Source of the DNA: a virus | Virus record (IMG/VR): IMGVR_UViG_3300031344_000005 | Location: 1-64,000 of that record | Direction: 5' to 3' (one strand) | DNA: 64,000 nucleotides | Shown: positions 9,979-59,175 of the stretch, one piece after another | Layout: each line of letters begins with the position of its first letter | Position numbering within the stretch: position 1 is the first letter of the stretch | Notes under the pieces: generated by a model | The model's database searches: none | What the model was told of the DNA's origin: nothing | What the model saw: the letters and a program-made list of their open reading frames with translations, nothing else | Translations under genes and position numbers: made by a program

Positions 9979-10004
9979 CCTGAGAAAGTGTTAAGGTGTA
10001 GCCC

Positions 10005-11651
10005 ATGGCAAGTGCAATCCACAGGGATCCGGCAGCAGGAGAACGACTCGTGAACGCAGTGGCCCAGCAAGACCTTGTCGCCGAGCAGATGCGGCGGGTG
10101 GGCCTGTCGCAGCGGCAAGTCGAGCTGAACCAGTTGTATTCCTATGCCCGCGCGCAGCAGCACGACACGTGCGCGCTTGACTGGGACGGCAGCCCGCATC
10201 CCACGGCCATCGACCGGCAGGCCATCGTCTCGTCGAACTTCCTGCCGCAGGGATGGAAGGACCCAGGCGGGAATCTGGACCCCCTGCCCCTGCGGTATCG
10301 CCGGCCGTCGGTGCCCTGCCACCTTGGCAAGGTGATCCCGGCGCGCTTCACGGCGCTCCTCTTCGGGGAAGGCACGCACCCGCAATGGAAAGTGCCTGGC
10401 CTCCCCAACACCGAGGCATGGATCGAGGCCGTGAGCCACTCCTATGACCTCTGGTCGAAGATGACGCTGGTGCGAGACATGGGCGGCGGCATGGGAACGG
10501 CCATCATCGGTTTCAAGATCATCGACGGCGAAGTGGTGTTTGAGGAGTTCGATGCCCGCTGGGCGTTCCCGACGTTCGACCCGCGGCGGCCCGGCCTGCT
10601 CTCGATGCTGGAGATTCGGTACATGTTCCCGCAGGAAACCATGGACCCGCAGACCGGGAAGTGGCGCGAGGACAAGTTCTGGTATCGCAGGATCATCGAC
10701 ACGAAGAGCGACTGTCTTTGGAAGCCGCAGCTCGTCGGCGACGGCACGCAGGAGCCGAATTGGAAGGACCCCGCGACGGCCGCCTCAATAGTCGACCACG
10801 AGTTTGGCTTCGTGCCGGTCTGGTGGATCCAGAATATCGAAGTCACCGGGGACATTGACGGCGATCCGGACTGCCACGGCTGCTACGACTATTTCGACCG
10901 CATTGGTGAGCTGGACTCGCAGTCCCACAAGGGCGCGGTCAGGAACGCAGACCCAACCGCCACGATTGCCAGCGACGGGAACTACTCGACGGTCCAGATG
11001 GGCAGCGACCAGGTGCTCAAGATGGAGAAAGGTGCGACCGCCGGCTACCTCGAAAGCCAGGGGACCGCCGTGAAGGCCGCGTCCGACGAATCCGACCGCT
11101 TGCGCTCGAAGGCGCTGGAAATCGCGGAGTGCGTGATGCCCGACCAGGAAGACCGCGAGGGCGGACCCGTCACCGCGACCGAGATGCACAAGAAGACCGC
11201 CGCCATGTACGCGAAGGCGGCCCGCATGCGCCAGCAGTACGGCAGCAAGGGACTCGTCCCGATGATGACCGCGCTGGTGAAGGTGGCGCAGAAACTCAGT
11301 ACCGCCACCGTTGTCGGCGATGCCATCGTTAGGCGCCCCATCAAGCTGCCGCCCAAGATGGACGAGCAGCAAATGGGCGCGTACCAGCTCGACCCCAGCG
11401 ACAACGCGCAGCTCAAGTTGGAATGGCCGCCGTTCGCCGAGCCCACGCCAGGCGACACGCTGTCGACCGCGCAGGCGACTGTCTTGCTTGTGGGGAGTGG
11501 CATCGTCACGAAGAAGACCGCTACGCGAAAGGTGGCCTCGCACTACAACATTGAGGACATTGACGCTGAAGTCGCGCAGGCCGCGAAGGAAAAGCCCGTG
11601 ATGCCGGACTTGGGTGCGCAGTCGCTGAGCGAGTTGAACCAAGGGAGGTAA
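10005..11651 (+). CDS. Portal protein
   Basis: A 548-residue protein directly after the large terminase. It has the portal layout: an N-terminal wing with VPCHLGKVIPARFTALLFGEG, a central GELDSQSHKGAVRNADPT segment, and a long helical stem with TATEMHKKTAAMYAKAARM. A C-terminal acidic/helical crown follows. It resembles SPP1 gp6-type portals. Twelve copies form the ring at the head vertex through which DNA is pumped. The start ATG has AAGG about 10 bases upstream. Confidence 0.85.
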   Translation: MASAIHRDPAAGERLVNAVAQQDLVAEQMRRVGLSQRQVELNQLYSYARAQQHDTCALDWDGSPHPTAIDRQAIVSSNFLPQGWKDPGGNLDPLPLRYRRPSVPCHLGKVIPARFTALLFGEGTHPQWKVPGLPNTEAWIEAVSHSYDLWSKMTLVRDMGGGMGTAIIGFKIIDGEVVFEEFDARWAFPTFDPRRPGLLSMLEIRYMFPQETMDPQTGKWREDKFWYRRIIDTKSDCLWKPQLVGDGTQEPNWKDPATAASIVDHEFGFVPVWWIQNIEVTGDIDGDPDCHGCYDYFDRIGELDSQSHKGAVRNADPTATIASDGNYSTVQMGSDQVLKMEKGATAGYLESQGTAVKAASDESDRLRSKALEIAECVMPDQEDREGGPVTATEMHKKTAAMYAKAARMRQQYGSKGLVPMMTALVKVAQKLSTATVVGDAIVRRPIKLPPKMDEQQMGAYQLDPSDNAQLKLEWPPFAEPTPGDTLSTAQATVLLVGSGIVTKKTATRKVASHYNIEDIDAEVAQAAKEKPVMPDLGAQSLSELNQGR

Positions 11652-38350: not shown

Positions 38351-39845
<1,495 letters not shown>

Positions 39846-39849
<4 letters not shown>

Positions 39850-40820
39850 CCGAAAAGATCAGTGCAGTCATCTGCACCTACAACGAAGAGGACAACATCG
39901 CGGCCTGCATCGAGTCGGTTGCAGGCGTCGACGAGGTCGTGGTGAGTGACGACTATTCGGAGGACTCGACAAGGGAGATTGCCGAACGCCTCGGCGCCAA
40001 GGTATTGTTGCGCAGCAAGGAAGGCGGTGGTTCACGGCTCGGCGGTGACATCATCACGGAGACGCATGTCAACGACTTCCACGAGCGCTTCGGCTGGGCG
40101 CCATCATTCCACGCTGGCGACCGCATTTGCAACGGCGCCGACAAGGCCCGTGAGGCCGTGGGGTTCGCCCAGGGGGACTGGATCATTAGTCCAGATGCGG
40201 ACGAGCGTGTCACCTGGAACTTACCAGCGTTGCGGGAATTGCTTCCGGTCTGTGATCAGATCGTGCACGAGTTCGTCCACTCACACGACGCTGAAGGGAA
40301 GCCTCACCGAGTAAGCACTATCTCAAAACTATTTCGCAAATCCATGACCGGGTTTGGAGGGCGCACGCACACTTGCATGCTGCCGGCGGGGAGGATCCTC
40401 CAGACGAACCTGCTTCGCATTGACCACTACCAAAAACCCCACGACCAGCCGCACGTGCTGCCAACGATGGAGTACAGCGTGCTGACGGACGACGATCAAC
40501 GAAGTCGGTTTTATCTCGGGCGCGAATATTACTTCTATCGTCACTACGACAGGGCGCTCGTTCTCTTGGATCTGTACCTCAAGAACGCCACCGGACACAT
40601 CCCAGAGATTGCACAGGCACGGTTGTACGCGGCTCATTGCTACTGGGAGGATGGCTCGGGACGTGGCGATGAAGCGCGGCGGAGCTGCATGGAAGCGTTG
40701 ATCCTCAACCCCGAGCACCGGGACGCACTGGCATTCATGGCCGAGCTGTATCACGAGCCGTGGAAACACAAATGGCTGCACCTCGCTAGCGTGGCCACAG
40801 ACGAGGATATTCTATTTTGA
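39846..40820 (+). CDS. GT2-family glycosyltransferase with TPR-like tail
   Basis: A 324-residue enzyme starting at the ATG overlapping the fibre stop. The GT-A motifs are [10 protein letters not shown] (9-18), [10 protein letters not shown] (33-42), and a DxD-type PDADERV (116-122). The C-terminal 100 residues look helical, like tetratricopeptide repeats ([26 protein letters not shown]), also found in other TPR-fused GT2 enzymes. It lies between fibre and baseplate genes, where glycosyltransferases are not usual. The target is probably a tail protein. Confidence 0.8.
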
Positions 40821-41653
40821 ACCCATTCGCCCGCGCAGGATTTGAACAAGCCGGACAGATGCTCGGCGAGGGCAGCTCGTTCTACGTCGCGCGGGCCATC
40901 AGCGTGGGCGGACAGATCGTCCGAATAGTGTTCAGCGGCGAGCCCAAGCACAAAAGTTCGGGTGCGCCAGATGATGCCCTGAACGCGGCGAACTACCAGG
41001 TTTCAGTCACGACCGGGACCGGCAATGATCCGGAGTCCATCGCGACCCTGCTAACCGTTGGGTTCTGGCCAGCCTTCGGGCTGCACGCTGACGGCGAGGC
41101 GTACGTCGATTTGCAAGTGGACCGCCCCCTCATCGTCGGCATGAGCTACACGGTCGCGGTGTCGCATGCACTGGTGGCGGCTGACGGCACTCCGATCGGC
41201 TCCCCCTACTCGTGGACCTTCAACGGCTCGGCGCGGCCGATTCGTCGACGCCAGCAACGCCGGCAAATCGGGCTAGTAGACTTCGCGAGCGATCCCTTCA
41301 CGGGCGGCATTAAAGTCGACCAATCGGGCGACTGGGCGAGCGAGGAAGGTTTGTCCGGCACTCGCAAGCGCGTTTGGCGGACTGCCCTCACGCCATTCGG
41401 CGCATTTTCGTTTCTGCAGAATTTCGGTCTGAAGTACGACATCAAGAAGCCCGGCACGCTCAGCATCCTGGGCAACTTGCGCACCGAACTGAAACAGCAG
41501 CTTCTGCAGCAGCCCGACATCAAGAACGCCAGCTCGTCGGTGGCGATGGACTCGCGTGGCTTTTTGGCTATCACGATCAACACCCAGACCAGCACGGGTG
41601 AGAATCTTTCCGATACCATGCAGGCAACCCCCAGCGGAATGGTGACAACGTAA
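40817..41653 (+). CDS. gp25-like baseplate wedge protein
   Basis: A 278-residue protein beginning with TTG in a TTGA overlap. The N-terminal part is a beta domain. The C-terminal part has the gp25-like arrangement GTRKRVWRTALTPFGAF, NFGLKYDI and a strand ending FLAITINTQ. It precedes baseplate-J-like genes, as gp25-type proteins commonly do. Confidence 0.55.
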   Translation: MNPFARAGFEQAGQMLGEGSSFYVARAISVGGQIVRIVFSGEPKHKSSGAPDDALNAANYQVSVTTGTGNDPESIATLLTVGFWPAFGLHADGEAYVDLQVDRPLIVGMSYTVAVSHALVAADGTPIGSPYSWTFNGSARPIRRRQQRRQIGLVDFASDPFTGGIKVDQSGDWASEEGLSGTRKRVWRTALTPFGAFSFLQNFGLKYDIKKPGTLSILGNLRTELKQQLLQQPDIKNASSSVAMDSRGFLAITINTQTSTGENLSDTMQATPSGMVTT

Positions 41654-42762
41654 TGCCCTCTTCCTTCGTTTCGCGCCAAGACCTCTTCGCGGTTGGCCGC
41701 GCCGCCATTGTCGCCACGCCTGGAATCCGCATCAACCCAACGATGATCGATGTTCCGGGCAGCGATCTAAACCTCACGGTCGGGGTAGACGCCGTGTTGG
41801 GCGAAGAAATATCGATGCGTTCTGCCTATGCGATGCGGGGGGCGTTCGCGGAGTTAGCGCGCGGCTCGCAGCTCGACCGAGTGATCTATGACCGATCGGG
41901 CCTCCTGCGGTTCGGCGCCACGCCGGCCAGCGTAGATCTCGTGCTGAGCAGGCCAACCGCAACCGGGGGCGCCGGGACCCTTGACGCTGGCTCAGTGGTC
42001 CAAACGGCCGCTGGCACGCAGTTCGGGCTGGATTACGCGGTGGTTTTTGGCGATGCGCTTCTCACGACCACGGCGTCCGCGACATCTACAACGTCGGGCG
42101 CCGATACCAACGTGGCAGCCGGGACCGTGACAGGGTTCTCAACTCAGCCGTTCGACACGACTTTGACGGTGACCAACCCCACGAGCGCGGCCGGCGGAAC
42201 CGATGCCGAGGATGCCATTGCGTTCCTGGGGCGCTATCGCGGCTACTTCCCGACGCTCAGCAGGGGCACGCTGGGGGCCATCGAATATGGGGCCACGCAG
42301 GTGCCTGGCGTTGCCGTCGCGACCGCCACCGAGGTGGTGAACCCAGGGACGGGCTACCCTGCGGCTATCGTCCAGTTGGTGATCGGTGATGTCTCGGGAA
42401 ACGCGACCTTCGACATGGTGAAGGCCGTGGCCAATATGATGCTGACCTACCGGGCACTCGGTATCTACGTGCAGGTACTGAGCGGCGTCGTATTCCAGCA
42501 GGCCGTCGCGTGGTCGCTCGCGTTCCAAACCGGAGTCAACGAAGCGCTGGCGGTGTCGCGCGTGCGGGCCGTTACGGTGGCGTGCGCGCAATTCCTGGCG
42601 CCGGGCGCCACGCTCTACAGGTCGACTCTTATCAGCGCGGCCCGAAAAGTGCCTGGCGTCATTATCTCGGATTCGTCACTCGTCTACCCGCTCGGAGACG
42701 TCGAGCCTACGTCGGTTCAGCAAATGATCCGTGTCGCAAGCCAGGCGGTCACCTTCCAATGA
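41653..42762 (+). CDS. Baseplate J-like protein 1
   Basis: A 369-residue protein. The phrases GTDAEDAIAFLGRYRGYFPTLSR and GAIEYGATQVPGV are like those in baseplate J (Mu gp47) proteins. Long Thr-rich beta segments precede. A second J-like protein follows, and the pair may form the baseplate wedge. It starts with TAATG overlap. Confidence 0.65.
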   Translation: MPSSFVSRQDLFAVGRAAIVATPGIRINPTMIDVPGSDLNLTVGVDAVLGEEISMRSAYAMRGAFAELARGSQLDRVIYDRSGLLRFGATPASVDLVLSRPTATGGAGTLDAGSVVQTAAGTQFGLDYAVVFGDALLTTTASATSTTSGADTNVAAGTVTGFSTQPFDTTLTVTNPTSAAGGTDAEDAIAFLGRYRGYFPTLSRGTLGAIEYGATQVPGVAVATATEVVNPGTGYPAAIVQLVIGDVSGNATFDMVKAVANMMLTYRALGIYVQVLSGVVFQQAVAWSLAFQTGVNEALAVSRVRAVTVACAQFLAPGATLYRSTLISAARKVPGVIISDSSLVYPLGDVEPTSVQQMIRVASQAVTFQ

Positions 42763-44252
42763 GTCAGGGCGGTCCTCTCTCGCAGGCTGACCTACTGGCG
42801 TTTCTGCGCCGGACGACGGATAGCGCTTGGCTGCAGGCCATGCTCGACCAGCCCGATGGCGCTGCCATCATCGCCAGCAAGCTCGCGGTTTTCGAGGCGA
42901 CCAGCGAAGCCGTCATGGCCCAAGCCGATGCCACCATGATTTCAACAGCGCCGACTGGGCGCTCGGGAGTGTGCACGCTGACGCTCAGCCGTAGCAATAC
43001 CAGCGTGGCCGACACAATCCCGAAGGGGTACTCGTTCGTGACCAACCTTGGCGTCGCCCTAACGGTCGCGACCGACACCATCGTGGCGACGTCGCAGAGC
43101 ACCGTGGCGGTCCCGCTTGAAACCGTCAGGATGATCGATTTGGTCAACACTCCTGGGCCCGCATTCGACGACCTTCTCACGCCCGGCGGATACGTCGACG
43201 CCGCCCTGGGCACCAACGGGGCATGTGTGTTCTTCGATGCCCCACACACGTCCGGGACGCTCACCTATGTTTCGTCGACTGCTATCACCGGCGCCGCCGA
43301 AGACTGGCTGAGTGCTCTTGGCGCCGAGCGCGGCTGCTACCGTCAGGACGGCGAGGACGGCGAAGCCTACAGGGCACGAGTCCGCATGATTCCCGATGCC
43401 GTGAGCCCCAGAGCTATTGCGGCCGCCGTCGATGCCCCGTCGACGGCCTTGCCGCCGCGCTGGCTCGCCGAACCGTTCAACGACGGCGCCGATGTAGACG
43501 TCCGGCTGGCCATGAGCCTGGGATTCTTCGACGCTCCGTTCTGCGACATTGGGACTAACGGCTGGCCGCTCAGCTACTGCGACGATTGGCTTGGCGCGAC
43601 ACTTGCGGCAAAAAACCCCGTCGCGACTGTCGAAACCCCCGGCATGCGGGAGAGCCGCGCCTATTTCCGCATCGACCTGGTCGGCCCGTTGTGCGACCCC
43701 GATGGCCTGCTCCTCTATGCGGACGTCGGATATACCGACGACACCGAATGGGGGTTCCCCGACATCGGCTGCCTGCCGGGCTCTTCGATTGGAGTGCATC
43801 CCGTCATAGGCGCCGCCAGCCAGGCCCTTCTGCATGAGGCGCAGACCAAGAAGGCCGGGGGAGTGCAGTTTGACATCTACCTCGAAGACGCAACAATTCT
43901 GCAGGCGCAGAACTACCACAACGGCACCACCGACCCGACCGGGGCCGTCGTCTGGACGCTCACGCCGGAGTCTGACACCGCATGGTATCTACGCGAAGGG
44001 CTCGCGACCGGAGACGCTGGCGAAATGATGAATCCCGCAACACAAGGGATCAAGGTGCGGCTCACCCTGGCGGACAGCACCGTCATCGATACCGGGTGGC
44101 GCGTCGGCTGCCTCCCGTTGCGGATGTTCGAGCTGAAAGCCCTTGGGTATCACAGCCAGCGCGTCGCTAAAATCGAGGGCCTGGTGAGGGCCGATGTGCC
44201 CGCGTTCTTGAACCTAGTTGGAAATTTTCTAGTGAGTACGTGCACAATCTGA
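42759..44252 (+). CDS. Baseplate J-like protein 2
   Basis: ATG 42759 overlaps the upstream TGA; the product is 497 residues. EDGEAYRARVRMIPDAVSPRAI (written here in part) is the J-domain signature, around residues 205-225. The C-terminal half carries CDP/GPLCDPDGLLLYADVGY and other beta strands that may be an extra attachment domain. It is close in order and type to the preceding J-like gene. Confidence 0.6.
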   Translation: MSQGGPLSQADLLAFLRRTTDSAWLQAMLDQPDGAAIIASKLAVFEATSEAVMAQADATMISTAPTGRSGVCTLTLSRSNTSVADTIPKGYSFVTNLGVALTVATDTIVATSQSTVAVPLETVRMIDLVNTPGPAFDDLLTPGGYVDAALGTNGACVFFDAPHTSGTLTYVSSTAITGAAEDWLSALGAERGCYRQDGEDGEAYRARVRMIPDAVSPRAIAAAVDAPSTALPPRWLAEPFNDGADVDVRLAMSLGFFDAPFCDIGTNGWPLSYCDDWLGATLAAKNPVATVETPGMRESRAYFRIDLVGPLCDPDGLLLYADVGYTDDTEWGFPDIGCLPGSSIGVHPVIGAASQALLHEAQTKKAGGVQFDIYLEDATILQAQNYHNGTTDPTGAVVWTLTPESDTAWYLREGLATGDAGEMMNPATQGIKVRLTLADSTVIDTGWRVGCLPLRMFELKALGYHSQRVAKIEGLVRADVPAFLNLVGNFLVSTCTI

Positions 44253-48800: not shown

Positions 48801-49091
48801 ATTGATGGCAACGAGGATTTCATTGGCATTGACCTAGAAGCCACGGGAAGTGATCCATGGTTACCCGGCGACCGTCTCTGGGTTCACTACGCTAGTGCTC
48901 GCAACGTGGTGGCGATGCGAACTGTGCCGAGCGGTTGCGGAGCGCTCTGGTTCAATGTTCCCCCCGACCCCTCCGACCCATCAGGTAGCTCGCCTACTGT
49001 GAGAGTGGGGACTGGCTCCGTGATGTGCTTTGTCTGCAACGGCACCCTATGGGTAGCCGCCACACCACCTGCGTTTGGAAATATCGAATGA
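45846..49091 (+). CDS. Large tail fibre protein with HxH motifs
   Basis: A 1081-residue, beta-rich protein. Three HxH motifs lie at DHVH (about 183), KHVH (about 439) and DHAH (about 632). They follow Gly/Ser/Ala-rich turns, as in trimeric phage fibres where HxH sites bind iron. The N-terminus (SASILISVNGDTPVAQW) looks like an Ig-like attachment domain. It is the largest structural gene after the next one. ATGA couples it to the next fibre gene. Confidence 0.65.
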   Translation: MGFASASILISVNGDTPVAQWRQDCVAGSVVTVALSDNIGANTYRWRLIGRPEGSTTAGTGPEPLSLGTAAVAAFTIDIQGTYVVECLVNGGAPDAIIIVGGVAYLETFTNPLGLLLRLLGPGETSEDNADPQIAQGWIKMLNRWLKVLRAFVSQAALFLSDRIPLPNGVGASGTGNEATRWDHVHPLKPVPVLTTRYYLTGNPSDTSGDYLFSTIQPAPADLQPPSGSTYPIIQDSPVGDPGIATWPAGVVMAHIVARVLNAHGGGMSYPMSFGTSGEGAAILGRVSGGRGGLAYQTAPWPDQPLLTSDYQTFVVPLYVQSLDGSAGDRLRAWFRCNPTGGTITDEQFEIHLSDSYLDTLFPPSDGGTGGDTYKVKRDVDATPVYGDQLLVSPNGSLSLVNDPESDSIDIQVVCSSDLPLPDDPVASAGDPNDRPASIKHVHSLVPASTNGSKLWTGLIPALGELAAVDCVFSGGLGGNSGWSQRGTGVWQSNGYGGIPPIALDSAIPFVGMRVLDAVDGVEAGIYVLTDTGQDVVTANTPYYIQADGSLALTPPTTSGNLTATVSGQAATIEMQSSAIGLTTWPGGTVPVTVTAWITGGSGDYTFGFIVGESIALDRGYAGGGGSAYSYSDHAHLPSTQAITSTPQQFTFNVPVTGTSSANLTDWLMLALTAHGNDGAVLHIGYDPSQSGAITTLFTTTFYHFAVLQRSSDANATADFSNGMYVLVNGGSTHAGQTWGATLPSPFELDVSSQSWTQISPPTSTPLYQLLTAAQLGFTSPNTGQASAAVSSTTGEVVIGSLTFDERTADLAGTTIPATGVWRSHLPLSLGGDLAANTVVKAYAKGALDGTWHLVGTTSALHSAGPGVFIAVGAFGGAGYSMGGAEPLQMQFTASTDSTDGVTVAWTYNDPTHQCYIEVPMVLGFSGTDNHQDLIKRGVFLVAGNETKYGHPQSYIEPGRVHSPYGDLVTTVGGVFTAPRSNSVQIDGNEDFIGIDLEATGSDPWLPGDRLWVHYASARNVVAMRTVPSGCGALWFNVPPDPSDPSGSSPTVRVGTGSVMCFVCNGTLWVAATPPAFGNIE

Positions 49092-52000
49092 AAAACCCAT
49101 TTGCAGTGCTCCTCGCGACTCTTGGCATCGCCATCGGCGGGAGTACACTCGTCTATGGCGCCTCGGTTGGCTACAGCTACCTCTACGGTAACAACTGCTC
49201 AGGCTATGGGTGTACCAACCCGCTCACAACCGTCACCGGCACCCTCGCCGCCGCACATGGCGACGCTGGAGTCAACGTCATGAACAGCCCCGCGCCCACG
49301 GCAGTTGGGCAGGCGCTGCTCGCAAAATCTATTGGCCCTTCCGCGAGTGCCAATTGGGCAACCATCCCCGGCGCAAATGCAGATATGATCTGGACGATTC
49401 GCAGTAGCGCTGCGGACAACAGTTGGTACAGCGTCACCTACGGCAACGGTACGTTTGTCGCCGTGGCGCCTACGGGGACGGGCAATCGAGTGATGACGTC
49501 GCCCGATGGAATCGCATGGACGATCCGCAGCAGCGCTGCGGACAACAGTTGGTCCAGCGTCACCTACGGCAACGGCACGTTTGTCGCCGTGGCGACTACA
49601 GGGACGGGCAATCGAGTGATGACATCACCCGATGGGATCACATGGACGATCCGCAGCAGCGCTGCGGACAACAGTTGGTTCAGCGTCACCTACGGCAACG
49701 GTACGTTTGTCGCCGTGGCGCCTACGGGGACGGGCAATCGAGTGATGACGTCGCCCGATGGAATCGCATGGACGATCCGCAGTAGCGCTGCGGACAACAA
49801 CTGGTACAGCGTCACCTACGGCAACGGTACGTTTGTCGCCGTGGCATACTCGGGGACGGGCAATCGAGTGATGACGTCGCCCGATGGAATCGCATGGACG
49901 ATTCGCAGTAGCGCCGCGGACAACGGCTGGATCAGCGTCACCTACGGCAACGGTACGTTTGTCGCCGTGGCATACACGGGGACGGGCAATCGAGTGATGA
50001 CGTCGCCCGATGGAATCGCATGGACGATCCGCAGCAGCGCTGCGGACAACAGTTGGCACAGCGTCACCTACGGCAACGGCACGTTTGTCGCCGTGGCGAA
50101 TACAGGGACGGGCAATCGAGTGATGACGTCGCCACCTTGGACCAACACGCCGCTATCCTCGTCGGTGCCTCCACTCGTCGCCGCAGGCCCCGGTGTGGCC
50201 GGCACGGGAACAAGCGCCCAGCGGTCTGATAGCCAGCAAGGGCTCTCCGCGACCAACCCCAACAAGGGCGACTTCTTCCGCTCGCCCGTAGGAACCGATA
50301 GCGCCACGAATACCAGCATCGGATGGGATCACGCCTTGGATCTCGTGCGCTACGCGGGCAGTGGTACGGCAGATCCAACGGCTGGGGCAGGCGTGCCTTG
50401 CCTACTGGCCTCTGGGTCTCCGCTTAGCATGTGCCTGTACTACCAGACGGTCCATTGCAACGACGGTGGATGTAGCTACGCGATTTGGTGGAAATCGGGC
50501 AGTGGTGATACCCAATGGACGCAGTTTGGCACGGGTGGGGGAGGTGGAGGAGGTACCATCGCGCTCACGTCACCGCTTGGAACCATCAACATCGGCGCAG
50601 GTGGTGGCCTGACGACCGAGGACGTGGTCTACGGCCATGCGATTCATACAGCGCTGCAGGGTTCCGAATGGAACGTGGCCAGCGGTGTCTGTCCTCTCGA
50701 CCCGAATACCATGGTTCCGCTGGCGAATCTGTACCCCAGCACCGAATCGCACGCCGGCACCATGAGCGCGGCTGACAAGACCAAGCTCGACGGCATCTCA
50801 GCCGGCGCAACCGTTGATGCCTTCACCGTCAAGGCTGCTTCGGGCTCAACGCCAGGCTATCTCGGTGCCGTCTGCGAATCCACCGACAGCAGTATCACCA
50901 TTGGCCAGACCGGCGACTACGTGACGTTCGCCGCGAACTTCGGCACCGGCGCGGCTCAGGTCTGCAGCGGTGCTACCTGCGCGGGCCTGCAGAGTCAGCT
51001 TCCCGCGTGCGCGCCTGGACAGATCGAAATCTTTGGCACAGTTACACAGACCGGGACGGCCACAGGGACGGTTACGAGCCGCACTTGCCAGAATTCGCCC
51101 TATCAGCCGGTGGGCAGCTATCAACCGGCGCTACCACCTGGGACAAACAACCAGGTGCTGGCCTACTCTGTGACGGGCACGGGGACCGGAACCAATATCG
51201 TAGCCAAAACTCCCAGCGTGAATGCTGGCAATGGCATCTCGGTGAGTGGCACCAACCCGGTCACGGGCCTCACAATTTCGGCCAACATCGCCAGCAGCCG
51301 CAACATCTCCACCGCGACTGCTAGCACGACTGCCGTGTCAACGGCTACCACGATGTACGGGTCTGACTCACAGGTGGTGCTGCCTGTGGCCAACGCGACC
51401 ACGCAGGGCATCTCCAAGGTTGCCAGCAATGCCGCTATCGCCAGCTCGACCAATACAGGCACGGCGTCGTCGACGGCGGGTGCCACCTGCATGCCGGCAG
51501 ATGCGACGGCCAACGGTGATCACCGGGTCAGCGTGGCGTCTGGGTCGACCCCGTACTACCTGGGGGACGCCGTCATAGCGGCGGCGAGTCCCGCGGTCGG
51601 TGGGGCTCCGATCGCCTTGAGTATAGACGACGAAGGCGGTGGTGTGAAGTATCTGATGCTCGGTGCGCGCGCGGGCTCCTCCTCGGTGAGCGGCATGGTG
51701 CGGCTCGACCCCAACGCACCCCCTGCCCTCGACGGCGGCCCGGCCACCACGGGCTCGCGTGGGCTTGCGGCTGATTCAGGCAACAAACCCAAGCTGGGCG
51801 GCAACTCGCCCACGCCGCGGCAAGCGCTCATCGGCGGGACCTGCAGCAACACCGCCACGGGGACCAACACCACAACCGCGATCAATTTCTGCCCATTGCA
51901 AGTCACGGACGTCAACGGCGCGGTGGGCGGCAGTGGGTCGACCAGCCATTACTCCAAGTGGACTGCTGGCAGTCAGCTTGGCAACGCCTTCATCACCGAA

Positions 52001-52816
52001 GACGCCGCCCAGCCTCAAATGAATGGCAGCTTCTCGGCGGGCACGACCTCGATTGACTATGTGGGACCCGCGCAATACAGCGCGATGGAATTGCCACGAG
52101 GCGAGCTGCTATTCAGCAACACCAATGCATCCAATCAGGCGTACCTGGTCAGCAACGCTTACGAGAAGTCAGACGGGACGCAGGCTTACCGCTACACGGG
52201 ACCAGCGGCAGGGCTGGGGATGCAAGACGGGATTATCTACGCTTTGACGGCGCCGAGCGGGACGCAGAATGCGGCGATTTCGTGGGTGACACAGGCGACG
52301 ATTTCGTCAACAGGGATTGCGGGCAGCAACATCACGGCCACACCAACGGCGAATGCGATTCCCAAGGCCGATGGTAGCGGGACACTCAATGCGTGGGTGA
52401 CAAATCACGCCAGCATCTTTCACGACACTTCGCTGGCCACCACCGTAGCGATCGGAGACTATCCTACCTGGCACACCATTCTGACATTTAACACAGGCGG
52501 AACTGCTGGAGCCATTGTTGTTCACGCCACGGTGACGGTCAAGTGTAATGGCGGGGGTAGTAGCGCAATCGCTTATGTGAGGCTTGCGATGGGTGCCGCC
52601 CAACTCGATGGGCAGTATTTGGCGACCGTGCCAGCCGCTGCATACGGGTACTACGGATACGCGACGTTAAGCGCCAACAGCTACGCGCCATTTTCGGCGG
52701 GAGCACACACGGTAGGTCTGCAAGCGTACACCGACACCACTAGCTGCGTCGTCCAGGGAAACGATCAGATCACGGGCGGCTCTGCTGTCCTCGTAGCCAC
52801 CGAATACACGAACTAG
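49088..52816 (+). CDS. Repeat-containing tail fibre with signal-like N-terminus
   Basis: ATG 49088 overlaps the previous stop; the product is 1242 residues. Residues 1-30 look like a signal peptide or anchor (KNPFAVLLATLGIAIGG), odd for a virion protein. Residues 102-353 are six 42-residue repeats of the W-T-I-R...GNGTFVAV...SPDG type, like propeller repeats. The rest is long Ser/Thr/Ala beta sequence with a C-terminal fibre-tip-like domain. It is probably a receptor-binding fibre. Confidence 0.65.
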   Translation: MKNPFAVLLATLGIAIGGSTLVYGASVGYSYLYGNNCSGYGCTNPLTTVTGTLAAAHGDAGVNVMNSPAPTAVGQALLAKSIGPSASANWATIPGANADMIWTIRSSAADNSWYSVTYGNGTFVAVAPTGTGNRVMTSPDGIAWTIRSSAADNSWSSVTYGNGTFVAVATTGTGNRVMTSPDGITWTIRSSAADNSWFSVTYGNGTFVAVAPTGTGNRVMTSPDGIAWTIRSSAADNNWYSVTYGNGTFVAVAYSGTGNRVMTSPDGIAWTIRSSAADNGWISVTYGNGTFVAVAYTGTGNRVMTSPDGIAWTIRSSAADNSWHSVTYGNGTFVAVANTGTGNRVMTSPPWTNTPLSSSVPPLVAAGPGVAGTGTSAQRSDSQQGLSATNPNKGDFFRSPVGTDSATNTSIGWDHALDLVRYAGSGTADPTAGAGVPCLLASGSPLSMCLYYQTVHCNDGGCSYAIWWKSGSGDTQWTQFGTGGGGGGGTIALTSPLGTINIGAGGGLTTEDVVYGHAIHTALQGSEWNVASGVCPLDPNTMVPLANLYPSTESHAGTMSAADKTKLDGISAGATVDAFTVKAASGSTPGYLGAVCESTDSSITIGQTGDYVTFAANFGTGAAQVCSGATCAGLQSQLPACAPGQIEIFGTVTQTGTATGTVTSRTCQNSPYQPVGSYQPALPPGTNNQVLAYSVTGTGTGTNIVAKTPSVNAGNGISVSGTNPVTGLTISANIASSRNISTATASTTAVSTATTMYGSDSQVVLPVANATTQGISKVASNAAIASSTNTGTASSTAGATCMPADATANGDHRVSVASGSTPYYLGDAVIAAASPAVGGAPIALSIDDEGGGVKYLMLGARAGSSSVSGMVRLDPNAPPALDGGPATTGSRGLAADSGNKPKLGGNSPTPRQALIGGTCSNTATGTNTTTAINFCPLQVTDVNGAVGGSGSTSHYSKWTAGSQLGNAFITEDAAQPQMNGSFSAGTTSIDYVGPAQYSAMELPRGELLFSNTNASNQAYLVSNAYEKSDGTQAYRYTGPAAGLGMQDGIIYALTAPSGTQNAAISWVTQATISSTGIAGSNITATPTANAIPKADGSGTLNAWVTNHASIFHDTSLATTVAIGDYPTWHTILTFNTGGTAGAIVVHATVTVKCNGGGSSAIAYVRLAMGAAQLDGQYLATVPAAAYGYYGYATLSANSYAPFSAGAHTVGLQAYTDTTSCVVQGNDQITGGSAVLVATEYTN
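49391..50146 (+). repeat. Six 126-bp tandem repeats in fibre gene
   Basis: Repeats begin at 49391, 49517, 49643, 49769, 49895 and 50021. Each is 126 bp and encodes 42 residues. Differences that change the protein are concentrated in codons 11, 13, 27 and 28. Other differences are mostly silent (for example gatt/gatc, agt/agc, ggt/ggc); the exceptions are the copy boundaries. The last repeat ends in a different sequence from about 50137. Confidence 0.92.
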
Positions 52817-55114: not shown

Positions 55115-56056
55115 ATGTTGTCCATCGGCATACATGCAAGCACGTGGAAGGTAGGACGATTCGGCTATATCCTTGGAGGGTTTGCTGCATCCCCTGTCGC
55201 TACTGCGGACTGTACAACATTCTCCACACAGATCACCGCTGCCCTGGCAAGCGCGAATCTGTCGCAGAATAACTATAACGCGTGCTCTTTGAGTGACGCC
55301 GTGAGATACGGCTACGCGCTTGGAGGATACAACGCGATTTACCTCATTTCAACTGATCAAATCACTCTCTCCACACAGGTCACCGCCTTGCTCGCTACCT
55401 GCAATCTATCGCAATCCAGGTATCGCGCTGGGTCGCTAAGCGACGGATTTCAATTTGGTTATGTCTTAGGGGGGACGAATGGCGCCCCTGTCGCTACTGC
55501 CGACTGTACAACATTCTCCACGCAGGTCACCGCTGCCTTGGCAAGCGCGAATCTGTCAGAGGCTCGTTATGGTCTAAGCGGTCTGAGTGACGCCGTGAGA
55601 TACGGCTACGCGCTTGGAGGATACACCTCCACCTACGTGGCCACGGGTGGGTGTTTGACGTTCAGTACCCAATCACTAGCCGCCCTAGCAAGCGCCAACT
55701 TATCACAGGCTCGTAGGTACGCTTGCTCAATGGGCGACCCTGTAAGGTACGTTGGCTATACGATAGGCGGTTCCAATGGGAACGATCTAGCTACTGCGGA
55801 CTGTACAACATTCTCCACACAGGTCACCGCTGCCTTGACAAGCGCGAATCTGTCGCAGGCTCGTTATGGCGTTTCCGGCATGATCGACGGACTTCAATTT
55901 GGTTATGTCTTAGGTGGAGCCAATTCTGGAGGGAATCTAGCTACTGCGGACTGTACAACATTCTCCACACAGATCACCGCTGCCCTGGCAAGCGCGAATC
56001 TGTCGGCAGGGAACGCGCGAAGGTATGTGTCATCCGTGAGTGACTACAATGTTTAA
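55115..56056 (+). CDS. Kelch-like repeat tail protein
   Basis: A 313-residue protein made of six roughly 49-residue repeats. Each has a GY(A/V)LGG-type strand, then TFSTQ(I/V)TAALASANLS and an ARYGxSGLSD turn. The double-Gly strands resemble kelch propeller blades, found in phage fibre-associated proteins. The DNA repeats are highly similar, with ctgtacaacattctccac at 55210, 55504, 55801 and 55951. It is likely a receptor-binding or decoration protein. Confidence 0.7.
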   Translation: MLSIGIHASTWKVGRFGYILGGFAASPVATADCTTFSTQITAALASANLSQNNYNACSLSDAVRYGYALGGYNAIYLISTDQITLSTQVTALLATCNLSQSRYRAGSLSDGFQFGYVLGGTNGAPVATADCTTFSTQVTAALASANLSEARYGLSGLSDAVRYGYALGGYTSTYVATGGCLTFSTQSLAALASANLSQARRYACSMGDPVRYVGYTIGGSNGNDLATADCTTFSTQVTAALTSANLSQARYGVSGMIDGLQFGYVLGGANSGGNLATADCTTFSTQITAALASANLSAGNARRYVSSVSDYNV

Positions 56057-58346: not shown

Positions 58347-58660
58347 TATGGCTCGCCCTCGCCCTCGTCGTCCTGGCAATCGTCGTCGGCGCGTTCGCGC
58401 TGGGCTGGCGGGCCTCGGCATGGTACTGCCAGCAAGCGACTCCGAGCTGTCCGCGGTGGCGCCCCCAGTGGCTTGCCATGTGGATCGCTGGCCTGAAGAA
58501 GCAATACCCCAACGGCTCGCATGAGCGGCGCCCTACGCCCGCGCCCACGCCGGGAGCGGTCCCGATGGCTAGGCTTGACAACGAATGGCGCGCGGGGATA
58601 CCATCTCAACGAATGGACACGCCGGTAACGGGCTGCGAAAATCCAAAGCGAAAAACATGA
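58343..58660 (+). CDS. Single-span membrane protein
   Basis: A 105-residue protein in ATGA overlap. One membrane span (LALALVVLAIVVGAFALGW) lies at the start. The tail has a Pro-rich section (TPAPTPGAV). It could be a small lysis-region protein. Its ending overlaps the homing endonuclease start. Confidence 0.5.
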   Translation: MIWLALALVVLAIVVGAFALGWRASAWYCQQATPSCPRWRPQWLAMWIAGLKKQYPNGSHERRPTPAPTPGAVPMARLDNEWRAGIPSQRMDTPVTGCENPKRKT

Positions 58661-59175
58661 AAGAAATCCCCCTCACGCAGGGCAAGGTCGCGCTCGTCGA
58701 TGACGAGGACTTCGAGGTGCTGAACGCGTTCAAGTGGTGCGCGGGACGAGATAAACGAACCTTCTACGTCATGCGGCGTGTACGTAGGCCGAGCGGAGGG
58801 TGGACAACGGAGAAAATGCACCGAGTGATTCTCATGCGTAAGCTAGGCCATTCGCTTGCCAAGGACGAACAGAGTGACCACGTCAATGGCGATGGCCTCG
58901 ACAACCGACGCGAGAACCTGCAGATGGCTACAACAGCGCAGAATCAACGAAACTGTCATCGGTTCATGCACACGGTAACTAGCCGATATCTAGGAGTGTG
59001 CTGGCACAAGCATTTTGCAAAGTGGACGCCGCGAGTTGGAGTTGCCAGAAAGCGCGTCAGCCTAGGCTATTATCGCACCGAATCCGAAGCCGCCCTTGCT
59101 CGCGAGTTCTACATCGCCGCACACCCCGAGCTACAGGCACGTAGCAACTTTGCAGGGCATGAACTGACACTGTGA
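58657..59175 (+). CDS. HNH homing endonuclease with AP2 domain
   Basis: The start is ATG 58657, overlapping the upstream TGA; the product is 172 residues. The HNH core is MHRVI (54-58), then DHVNGDGLDNRREN (74-87), ending in NLQMATTAQNQRN. The C-terminal AP2 domain is SRYLGVCWHKHFAKW...YRTESEAALAREFY. This domain pair is typical of free-standing phage homing endonucleases. It sits among membrane-protein genes and is probably a selfish insertion. Confidence 0.85.
   Translation: MKEIPLTQGKVALVDDEDFEVLNAFKWCAGRDKRTFYVMRRVRRPSGGWTTEKMHRVILMRKLGHSLAKDEQSDHVNGDGLDNRRENLQMATTAQNQRNCHRFMHTVTSRYLGVCWHKHFAKWTPRVGVARKRVSLGYYRTESEAALAREFYIAAHPELQARSNFAGHELTL

Follow-up and report, generated by a model that had tools for sequence, protein, structure and literature searches.

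We analysed a stretch of viral DNA of 64,000 nucleotides (positions 1–64,000 of IMG/VR record IMGVR_UViG_3300031344_000005, which comprises 82,815 bp; hereafter the window) and found that one of its genes (49088–52816, plus strand) contains a tandem array of near-identical repeats in which almost all amino-acid change falls into four codons. The array is likely to be a surface-recognition beta-propeller that is carried by a probable tail-fibre protein and owes its diversity to positive selection together with the amplification and recombination of blades. Judged from sequence comparison, the excess of replacements at these four columns is general across the relatives of the array.

Tandem Repeats Finder reports the array at 49391–50133, with a period of 126, 5.9 copies and 92% matches. 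The repeats are in frame with the coding sequence and form six blades of 42 codons between 49391 and 50134, with a mean blade DNA identity of 0.924. A preliminary description of this DNA had given the array as six 126-bp copies at 49391–50146; the repeats stand, but the last copy is a blade only up to codon 38, because codons 39–42 (PWTN) are the end of the array. From copy 1 to copy 6, codon 13 reads TAC, TCC, TTC, TAC, ATC and CAC, and codon 27 reads CCT, ACT, CCT, TAC, TAC and AAT, exactly as had been listed.

We refer to columns 11, 13, 27 and 28 as hot and to the remaining columns of the blade as cold. When codons 39–42 of copy 6 are left out of this and the following counts, the proportion of replacement differences (pN) is 0.398 in the hot columns and 0.003 in the other 38, where the proportion of synonymous differences (pS) is 0.141. 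If the minimum number of amino-acid changes in a column is taken as the number of distinct residues minus one, the hot columns hold 10 of the 11 changes. The eleventh is an A>T change at codon 42 of copy 2, so that five columns vary and not only the four to which change was originally thought to be confined. In simulations, at least 10 of 11 changes fall into the best four columns with a probability of 5e-5; with the four columns taken as given, the binomial probability is 8.5e-10. The other differences are mostly silent, much as first noted, and silent changes are not rare, with eight columns (3, 5, 7, 20, 26, 36, 37 and 38) varying only silently. A four-gamete test finds seven conflicting site pairs among the six copies, indicating exchange or recurrent change inside the array.

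Related arrays were collected in a scan of IMG/VR (251 relatives, 77 loci kept) and a scan of species genomes (172 relatives, 80 loci kept); loci from a further scan with 259 relatives were used only in the strain comparisons and the search for reverse transcriptases. The scans kept the best 80 of 251, 172 and 259 relatives. Their patterns contained parts of the variable columns (SAADNSWY, WYSVTYGN) and should therefore, if anything, bias toward sameness there. A blade hidden Markov model identified 776 blades in 128 arrays (viral loci and window). We discarded arrays that had fewer than four full blades, and where arrays had half or more of their blades in common we counted only one. This reduced the viral set, window included, from 128 arrays to 106 with four full blades and 76 distinct ones, and the genome set from 122 arrays to 103 distinct ones with four full blades.

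In the 15 distinct viral arrays of at least 84% DNA identity (window included), columns 11, 13, 27 and 28 vary in 15, 14, 15 and 15 arrays, followed by column 14 (9 arrays) and column 3 (7 arrays). All four hot columns vary in 14/14 viral arrays at 75–84% and in 35/35 at 62–75%, and in each of the three identity bins of the genome arrays (9, 32 and 51 arrays) the four highest pN values are those of columns 13, 27, 11 and 28. The hot columns thus have the highest replacement in every identity bin of both sets; change in the relatives is concentrated there and not spread evenly over the codons. Without the window, a mean of 2.7–3.0 of the 4 columns that vary most in an array are hot columns, versus 0.38 by chance. 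Likewise without the window, hot pN exceeds cold pS in all 23 arrays of at least 84% identity (14/14 viral, 9/9 genome) and in 24/28 viral and 38/41 genome arrays of at least 75%.

Pooled over these 23 arrays, the ratio of the replacement rate (dN) in hot columns to the synonymous rate (dS) in cold columns is 3.80 (95% confidence interval (CI) 3.16–4.63), and dN(hot)/dS(hot) is 2.55 (CI 1.88–3.70), whereas dN(cold)/dS(cold) is 0.28 (CI 0.22–0.35). Since hot dN lies above cold dS and also above the dS of the same codons, this is more than a loss of constraint, and these pooled rates support the earlier proposal that selection holds the frame while the surface is diversified. Among 1212 blades there are 1000 distinct four-residue codes, and every blade has its own code in 25 of 29 viral arrays. 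The same pattern is present in the isolate genomes of Alpinimonas psychrophila (L088; L numbers denote loci) and Afipia massiliensis (L144), and is therefore not only an effect of metagenome assembly.

AlphaFold2 predicts six four-stranded blades for the window stretch, with a mean predicted local distance difference test score (pLDDT) of 87.1 and a predicted template modelling score (pTM) of 0.83; model residues 1–14 and 270–281 lie below pLDDT 50. Column c of blade i corresponds to model residue 17+42(i−1)+c. In the model, strand A spans columns ∼14–18, strand B ∼21–25, strand C ∼34–37 and strand D ∼2–4 of the next repeat. Columns 11 and 13 precede strand A and columns 27 and 28 follow strand B, which places them in the D–A and B–C loops, respectively, and because of the up-down meander topology these two loops open on the same face. 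This topology argument would put all four variable columns on one face of the propeller, in line with what had been supposed from the repeats; the four positions lie in loops of the model and not in strands, which as far as tested does not bear out a fold that buries them. Blade 6 ends after strand C, and the N-terminal WTIR strand of blade 1 could therefore complete it and close the ring.

The seven-bladed relative L021 is predicted with a pLDDT of ∼93–98 over its propeller. The nearest solved folds are themselves propellers, mostly six-bladed: the designed SAKe6 and kelch in a Foldseek search, and Vgb lyase, NHL and Pizza6 with VIA-align (Z ∼21–24; top match Z 24.3, root-mean-square deviation 3.2, 245 aligned). 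The suggestion that the repeats form a propeller is thus upheld by both the model and its neighbours. Matching viral predicted structures include those of uncultured Caudovirales proteins and of a collagen-repeat protein of the giant virus Hokovirus HKV1 (BFVD A0A1V0SF56), whose predicted propeller is 60% identical to that of the window.

Sequence families place the array less clearly. The best Pfam match is the EPTP repeat (PF03736; expectation value (E) 7.3e-12, 45.6 bits versus a cut-off of 21), but it is a sum over short repeats with no single stretch above the cut-off, and is a likeness rather than proof of kinship. Among the members of the seven-blade alignment, 46/52 match DUF6242 (PF19755) and 41/52 match EPTP (E 0.001), whereas the window protein has no DUF6242 match up to E 1 in the Pfam scan. 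No literature on DUF6242 was found among open papers. NCBIfam gave nothing above cut-off, and the sole match in a PDB sequence search, BtSGBP-B (E 0.0083), covers one part. The Asp-box propeller superfamily was considered and rejected: its canonical motif, S/T-x-D-x-G-x-T/S-W, has 6 matches in 1264 blades of 179 arrays, and S/T-x-D/N-G-x-x-W, one residue shorter, occurs 1068 times in the same blades.

Blade number is seven in 57/76 viral and 83/103 genome arrays and six in 8/76 viral arrays, window included, counting arrays cut by contig ends. Contigs L012, L021, L024 and L026, which belong to a single phage, have 4-kb upstream flanks that are 99.5–99.8% identical, yet differ in their blades: L012 has 5, L021 has 7, L024 has 9 and L026, whose array is cut by the contig end, has at least 6, with different residues at the four columns. 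L021 and L024, whose downstream flanks are 99.7% identical over 2.8 kb, have two whole blades in common, and L024 and L026 have five; a flanking-protein scan for further strains of the L021 phage gave only the four known contigs. The flanks of L018 and L025 are 100% identical, but the blade numbers are 7 and 6, respectively, the absent blade being one of three nearly identical ones. In a further group (L179, L180, L182, L184, L185, L186 and L189; several arrays cut by contig ends), arrays reach 15 blades, with the 3′ blades in common and a differing 5′ side. Separately, the large phage contig of 246,901 bp to which both L022 and L016 belong has one region that holds numerous distinct arrays of this type of blade; two of these arrays have 14 blades.

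Single replacements also distinguish related contigs. The flanks of L062 and L067 are 99.86% identical over 7.9 kb, and the sole differences between their arrays are replacements at columns 13 and 11; L242 and L244, with flanks 97% identical over 774 bp, have 4/7 replacements in the four columns. When four equal-length pairs are pooled, the share is 7/15 (binomial P 2.3e-4). Our tally of strain pairs, 43 differing and 88 identical, includes twice-fetched contigs and arrays at contig ends and is not a rate. The preliminary description had proposed that new versions spread by repeat recombination; the four-gamete conflicts, together with blade gain, loss and replacement between near-identical contigs, none of them strains of the window phage, agree with this. 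As an isolate turnover test, Stenotrophomonas phages CM1 and RAS14 were uninformative: they are identical over the locus and their blades have long diverged. The blades of Synechococcus phage B23 and Limnohabitans phage DC31 have diverged too.

The array gene lies downstream of a baseplate J-like gene (41653–42762) and three large open reading frames (ORFs), in surroundings that look like a tail module, and the translation contains a SAADKTKLDGI-type motif that we take to be a fibre motif. In L021, the array protein has 470 aa and shows a match to a tail-fibre family of PHROGs at its C-terminus, and 3/10 array ORFs of relatives that were scanned (L014, L056 and L006) have a tail-fibre or tail family match. 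From position and motifs, the window protein is likely a phage tail fibre. We also looked at the carriers in ten loci of named or single-organism genomes. Judged by eye, some bacterial arrays belong to proteins that look secreted and have C-termini of a sorting type (Alpinimonas L088, Limnohabitans L129, Runella L156 and Flavobacterium L116) and others in prophage-tail-like proteins (Paenibacillus L095 and L139, Chryseosolibacter L128). A surface-recognition role in both phage and cell would be the simplest reading of these carriers.

Ordinary recombination of tandem blades, together with diversifying selection that acts on two loops, suffices to explain what we observe. One 42-codon blade would have been amplified in tandem, and the blades would keep a single frame through strong purifying selection and sequence exchange between blades. 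The D–A loop (codons 11 and 13) and the B–C loop (27 and 28) on one face would gather replacements under diversifying selection, giving each blade a four-residue code, and the ring would show six such codes (seven in most relatives) to a ligand, presumably one on the host surface. Unequal or homologous recombination would add, remove and reorder blades, such that near-identical phages come to differ in their binding faces. Selection, not a targeted mutator, probably lies behind the replacement excess, and ordinary homologous recombination would drive the turnover of blades.

The preliminary description had also hinted at a diversity-generating retroelement, whose reverse transcriptase, being error-prone, randomises the adenines of target codons as it copies a template repeat (accessible text of PMC10907252). 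Codon 13 of the window varies at its first two bases and keeps a C at the third, as such a target might, and A occurs at most variable first and second codon positions in the arrays. However, the third positions of the four columns vary in 16–20 of 29 arrays, and column 10, the immediate neighbour of hot column 11, has an Asn codon that reads AAT or AAC in 142 blades, with the residue varying in only 5/24 arrays. The adenine rule is judged here indirectly, from these two features: variable third positions and a neighbouring AAY codon (Y, pyrimidine) that hardly varies. The reverse transcriptase family RVT_1 matched none of 75 records (that of the window, 35 others and then 39 more, with L079 and L080 among them lacking blades), while the known retroelement phage p00 matched in the same search; the records are fragments or possibly incomplete, so absence is no proof. 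Blade 1 matches only the six array copies in its own 82,815-bp record, likewise possibly incomplete. The hint is not borne out, and a retroelement is a very unlikely diversifier of these arrays.

Relaxed constraint alone, with loops that tolerate any residue and a recent amplification that drifts without selection for diversity, would explain why the variable positions lie in loops, where tolerance is expected, and propellers are continually re-amplified from single blades (accessible text of PMC9218822). It predicts a replacement rate equal to the synonymous rate. This fits the 7/69 arrays of at least 75% identity in which hot pN is not above cold pS (4/28 viral, 3/41 genome), but not the pooled ratios of 3.8 and 2.55. 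Moreover, the other loop columns (18–20 in the A–B turn, 39–41 in the C–D turn) have a pN of at most 0.06 in the closest viral arrays, with columns 30 and 38 rising in the genome set, and we consider drift of this kind unlikely. An assembly artefact, in which metagenome arrays are chimeras of strain variants with unreal copy number and order, has to be taken into account for 126-bp repeats at 92% identity, which are difficult to handle with short reads. Several of the arrays are cut at the ends of contigs, and the blade number of the window is off the family mode. Yet chimeras reorder blades and do not create replacements at four columns, and the column-specific replacement is found in every identity bin, in both sets and in the named isolate genomes, which makes this explanation highly improbable. 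Finally, the varied loops could serve a structural or multimerisation role without ligand binding, by stopping identical blades from mispairing or aggregating. Identical neighbouring repeats in repeat proteins can misfold. The variation, however, is found at two loops of one face and not along the strands, every blade has its own code in most viral arrays, and a structural role alone would not explain different codes in near-identical phages; we give this role scarcely any credence.

Several observations weigh against a diversified recognition propeller as set out above, in addition to the seven arrays just mentioned. The dN/dS values come from pairwise counting rather than from a recombination-aware codon model. 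In 2/9 genome arrays of at least 84% identity, cold pN is not below cold pS, leaving the frame without a purifying signal. Column 28 is the weakest of the four, with an entropy of 2.46 over all blades versus 2.72 for column 3, and has fewer than four residues in strain group B. Columns 3, 14 and 30 are more variable than the frame, and columns 30 and 38 reach a pN of 0.29 and 0.23 in the closest genome arrays. Synonymous differences, too, are more frequent in the hot codons (pS 0.255 versus 0.183), for which a mutator or old alleles could be the cause. Of the equal-length pairs, L055/L072 have only 1/6 replacements at hot positions, and a single silent change is all that separates L068 from L070. 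Strains share whole blades and show few exact half-blade recombinants, so that exchange within blades is less well supported than whole-blade turnover, and differences between metagenome contigs may partly be assembly chimeras, some of the arrays running off contig ends.

Other points against concern the window itself. It has six blades where the family mode is seven, and both ends of its model are predicted with less confidence than in L021; one blade may therefore have been lost in assembly. Of the 53 natural stretches in the folding alignment, 46 came from seven-blade arrays that had been truncated after some six blades, so that the alignment could not reveal a seventh. No strain of the window phage was found, and its close relatives L078, L079, L080 and L081 are without such blades (baseplate protein identities of 83% for L079, 67% for L080 and 67% for L081), which makes a strain comparison impossible for the window array. 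The window protein has no PHROG tail match, and tail families are unmatched in 7/10 array ORFs of relatives; the original term fibre stands as likely from position, motifs and the tail matches of some relatives, without such a match in the protein itself.

At the corresponding place, L080 has a 946-aa protein with collagen-like and tail-fibre matches. In the sister phage L079 (10858–13533), a baseplate-region homologue of the window gene at 42510–44252 contains an inserted lactonase-type, propeller-like stretch of seven repeats with 45-aa units; in the numbering of the window ORF, the insertion lies between residues 242 and 251. These repeats are near-identical, with residues changing at two spots, which from the motif look like the same two loops. 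This hints that the system is not tied to one blade family.

The features of the array gene are listed below.

Table. The array gene, its blades and the modelled stretch (window coordinates)
Feature	Position	Strand	Residues at codons 11/13/27/28	Remarks
Coding sequence, fibre-like protein, 1242 aa	49088..52816	+		N-terminus hydrophobic; propeller at residues ∼102–349, then a long fibre-type region
Blade 1	49391..49516	+	S,Y,P,T	Codons at 49421-49423 (Ser), 49427-49429 (Tyr), 49469-49471 (Pro) and 49472-49474 (Thr)
Blade 2	49517..49642	+	S,S,T,T	Codon 42 A>T as well
Blade 3	49643..49768	+	S,F,P,T	
Blade 4	49769..49894	+	N,Y,Y,S	
Blade 5	49895..50020	+	G,I,Y,T	
Blade 6	50021..50134	+	S,H,N,T	38 codons; stops after strand C
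Stretch modelled as six-bladed propeller, 281 aa	49340..50182	+		AlphaFold2; scores in text

The window contains further repeats. A second repeat ORF at 55115–56056 has 49–50-residue units (TFSTQVTAALASANLSQARYG..GYALGG), kelch-like by eye and with fast-changing stretches, in six copies by anchor, the last shortened by a stop. Positions 1–360 hold 24 copies of a 15-bp unit that runs off the contig start and reads ANLxG in one frame (by eye), similar to a pentapeptide repeat, and short tandem repeats at 38722–39085, upstream of the tail genes, have a collagen-like reading (TGATGA type, by eye). A family 2 glycosyltransferase (39846–40820) just upstream of the baseplate J-like gene possibly modifies virion or host glycans. 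Downstream of the tail module, an HNH endonuclease with a weak AP2 match (58585–59175) resembles a homing endonuclease. In L021, two more tandem-repeat ORFs (10003–11257, minus strand) with ∼28-residue units (FAKDVPGADIQALQARVLE) lie downstream of the fibre and lysin genes.

Point mutation, domain swapping and, in some phages, retroelements are regarded as the main ways in which phages alter host recognition. The arrays suggest a further route, in which the blades of a modular ring would be added, lost or reordered while four positions per blade change. This route makes a prediction of the specificity-setting residues for numerous surface proteins of phages and bacteria that lack annotation (two collections gave 251 and 172 matching relatives), and it brings a convergence with the HNWD genes, a family of fungal immune receptors, within reach of testing. 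Phages and bacteria may share a retroelement-free diversification of recognition, with a self-amplifying blade, four hypervariable sites and turnover, that is independent of HNWD yet uses the same two loops; here we find the balance of the evidence even. By analogy with antibody loops, our comparison suggests that the top face of a propeller may be a general solution for rapid change of recognition. Among titles and the beginnings of abstracts in the open literature, we found no description of phage blade diversification of this sort: as far as found there, a process of this kind is known from fungi, but has not been described for this carrier, this propeller family or a phage setting.

In phages with retroelements, receptor-binding proteins carry hypervariable residues on the recognition surface of a tail protein with a fixed frame. 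The arrays described here are similar in this respect, as far as the accessible text on these systems goes, but differ in that no reverse transcriptase and no template repeat were found, and no adenine rule was seen, in the records and arrays covered above. A second likeness is to the highly repetitive beta-propellers of Pereira and Lupas 2022 (PMC9218822), in which one blade has been amplified, blade identity exceeds 60% and viruses are part of the dataset. The accessible portion of that paper describes tandem amplification of a single blade, a preferred blade number with variants, as here, and decay; to this we add selection per column and the comparison of phage strains.

The closest parallel is provided by the NWD/HNWD genes of Podospora anserina (het-d, het-e and het-r), whose WD40 repeats undergo concerted evolution and positive selection according to the accessible parts of three papers (PMC1805685, PMC2873952, PMC4986451), to which the following comparison is limited. 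There, too, propeller repeats are near-identical within a gene, their number changes and sequence is exchanged (PMC2873952, PMC4986451), and four codons per repeat, 7, 9, 25 and 27 in the d–a loop and the b–c turn, are under positive selection (PMC1805685), forming two pairs on top of the propeller. The first pair flanks a conserved residue in the d–a loop in Podospora; here codons 11 and 13 flank Trp12, invariant in the closest arrays, in the D–A loop. The second pair, 25 and 27, again surrounds a conserved residue in the b–c turn, whereas codons 27 and 28 are adjacent in the B–C loop, and the pairs are 18 codons apart in Podospora and 15–16 here. In our arrays, near-identical blades show a replacement excess at four D–A and B–C codons, established by pairwise counting where the fungal work used FEL (fixed effects likelihood), and close relatives differ by blade number and exchange, with the caveat of metagenome assembly. 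The HNWD proteins are fungal intracellular NLRs (NOD-like receptors) of a WD40 lineage with NACHT; ours are a probable phage fibre and bacterial surface proteins of another propeller lineage. We rejected the window protein as an HNWD-type NLR, the Pfam scan giving no NACHT or WD40 family up to E 1. The likeness to HNWD would thus be one of mechanism and not of descent, and probably reflects convergence on the same two loops of a propeller face.

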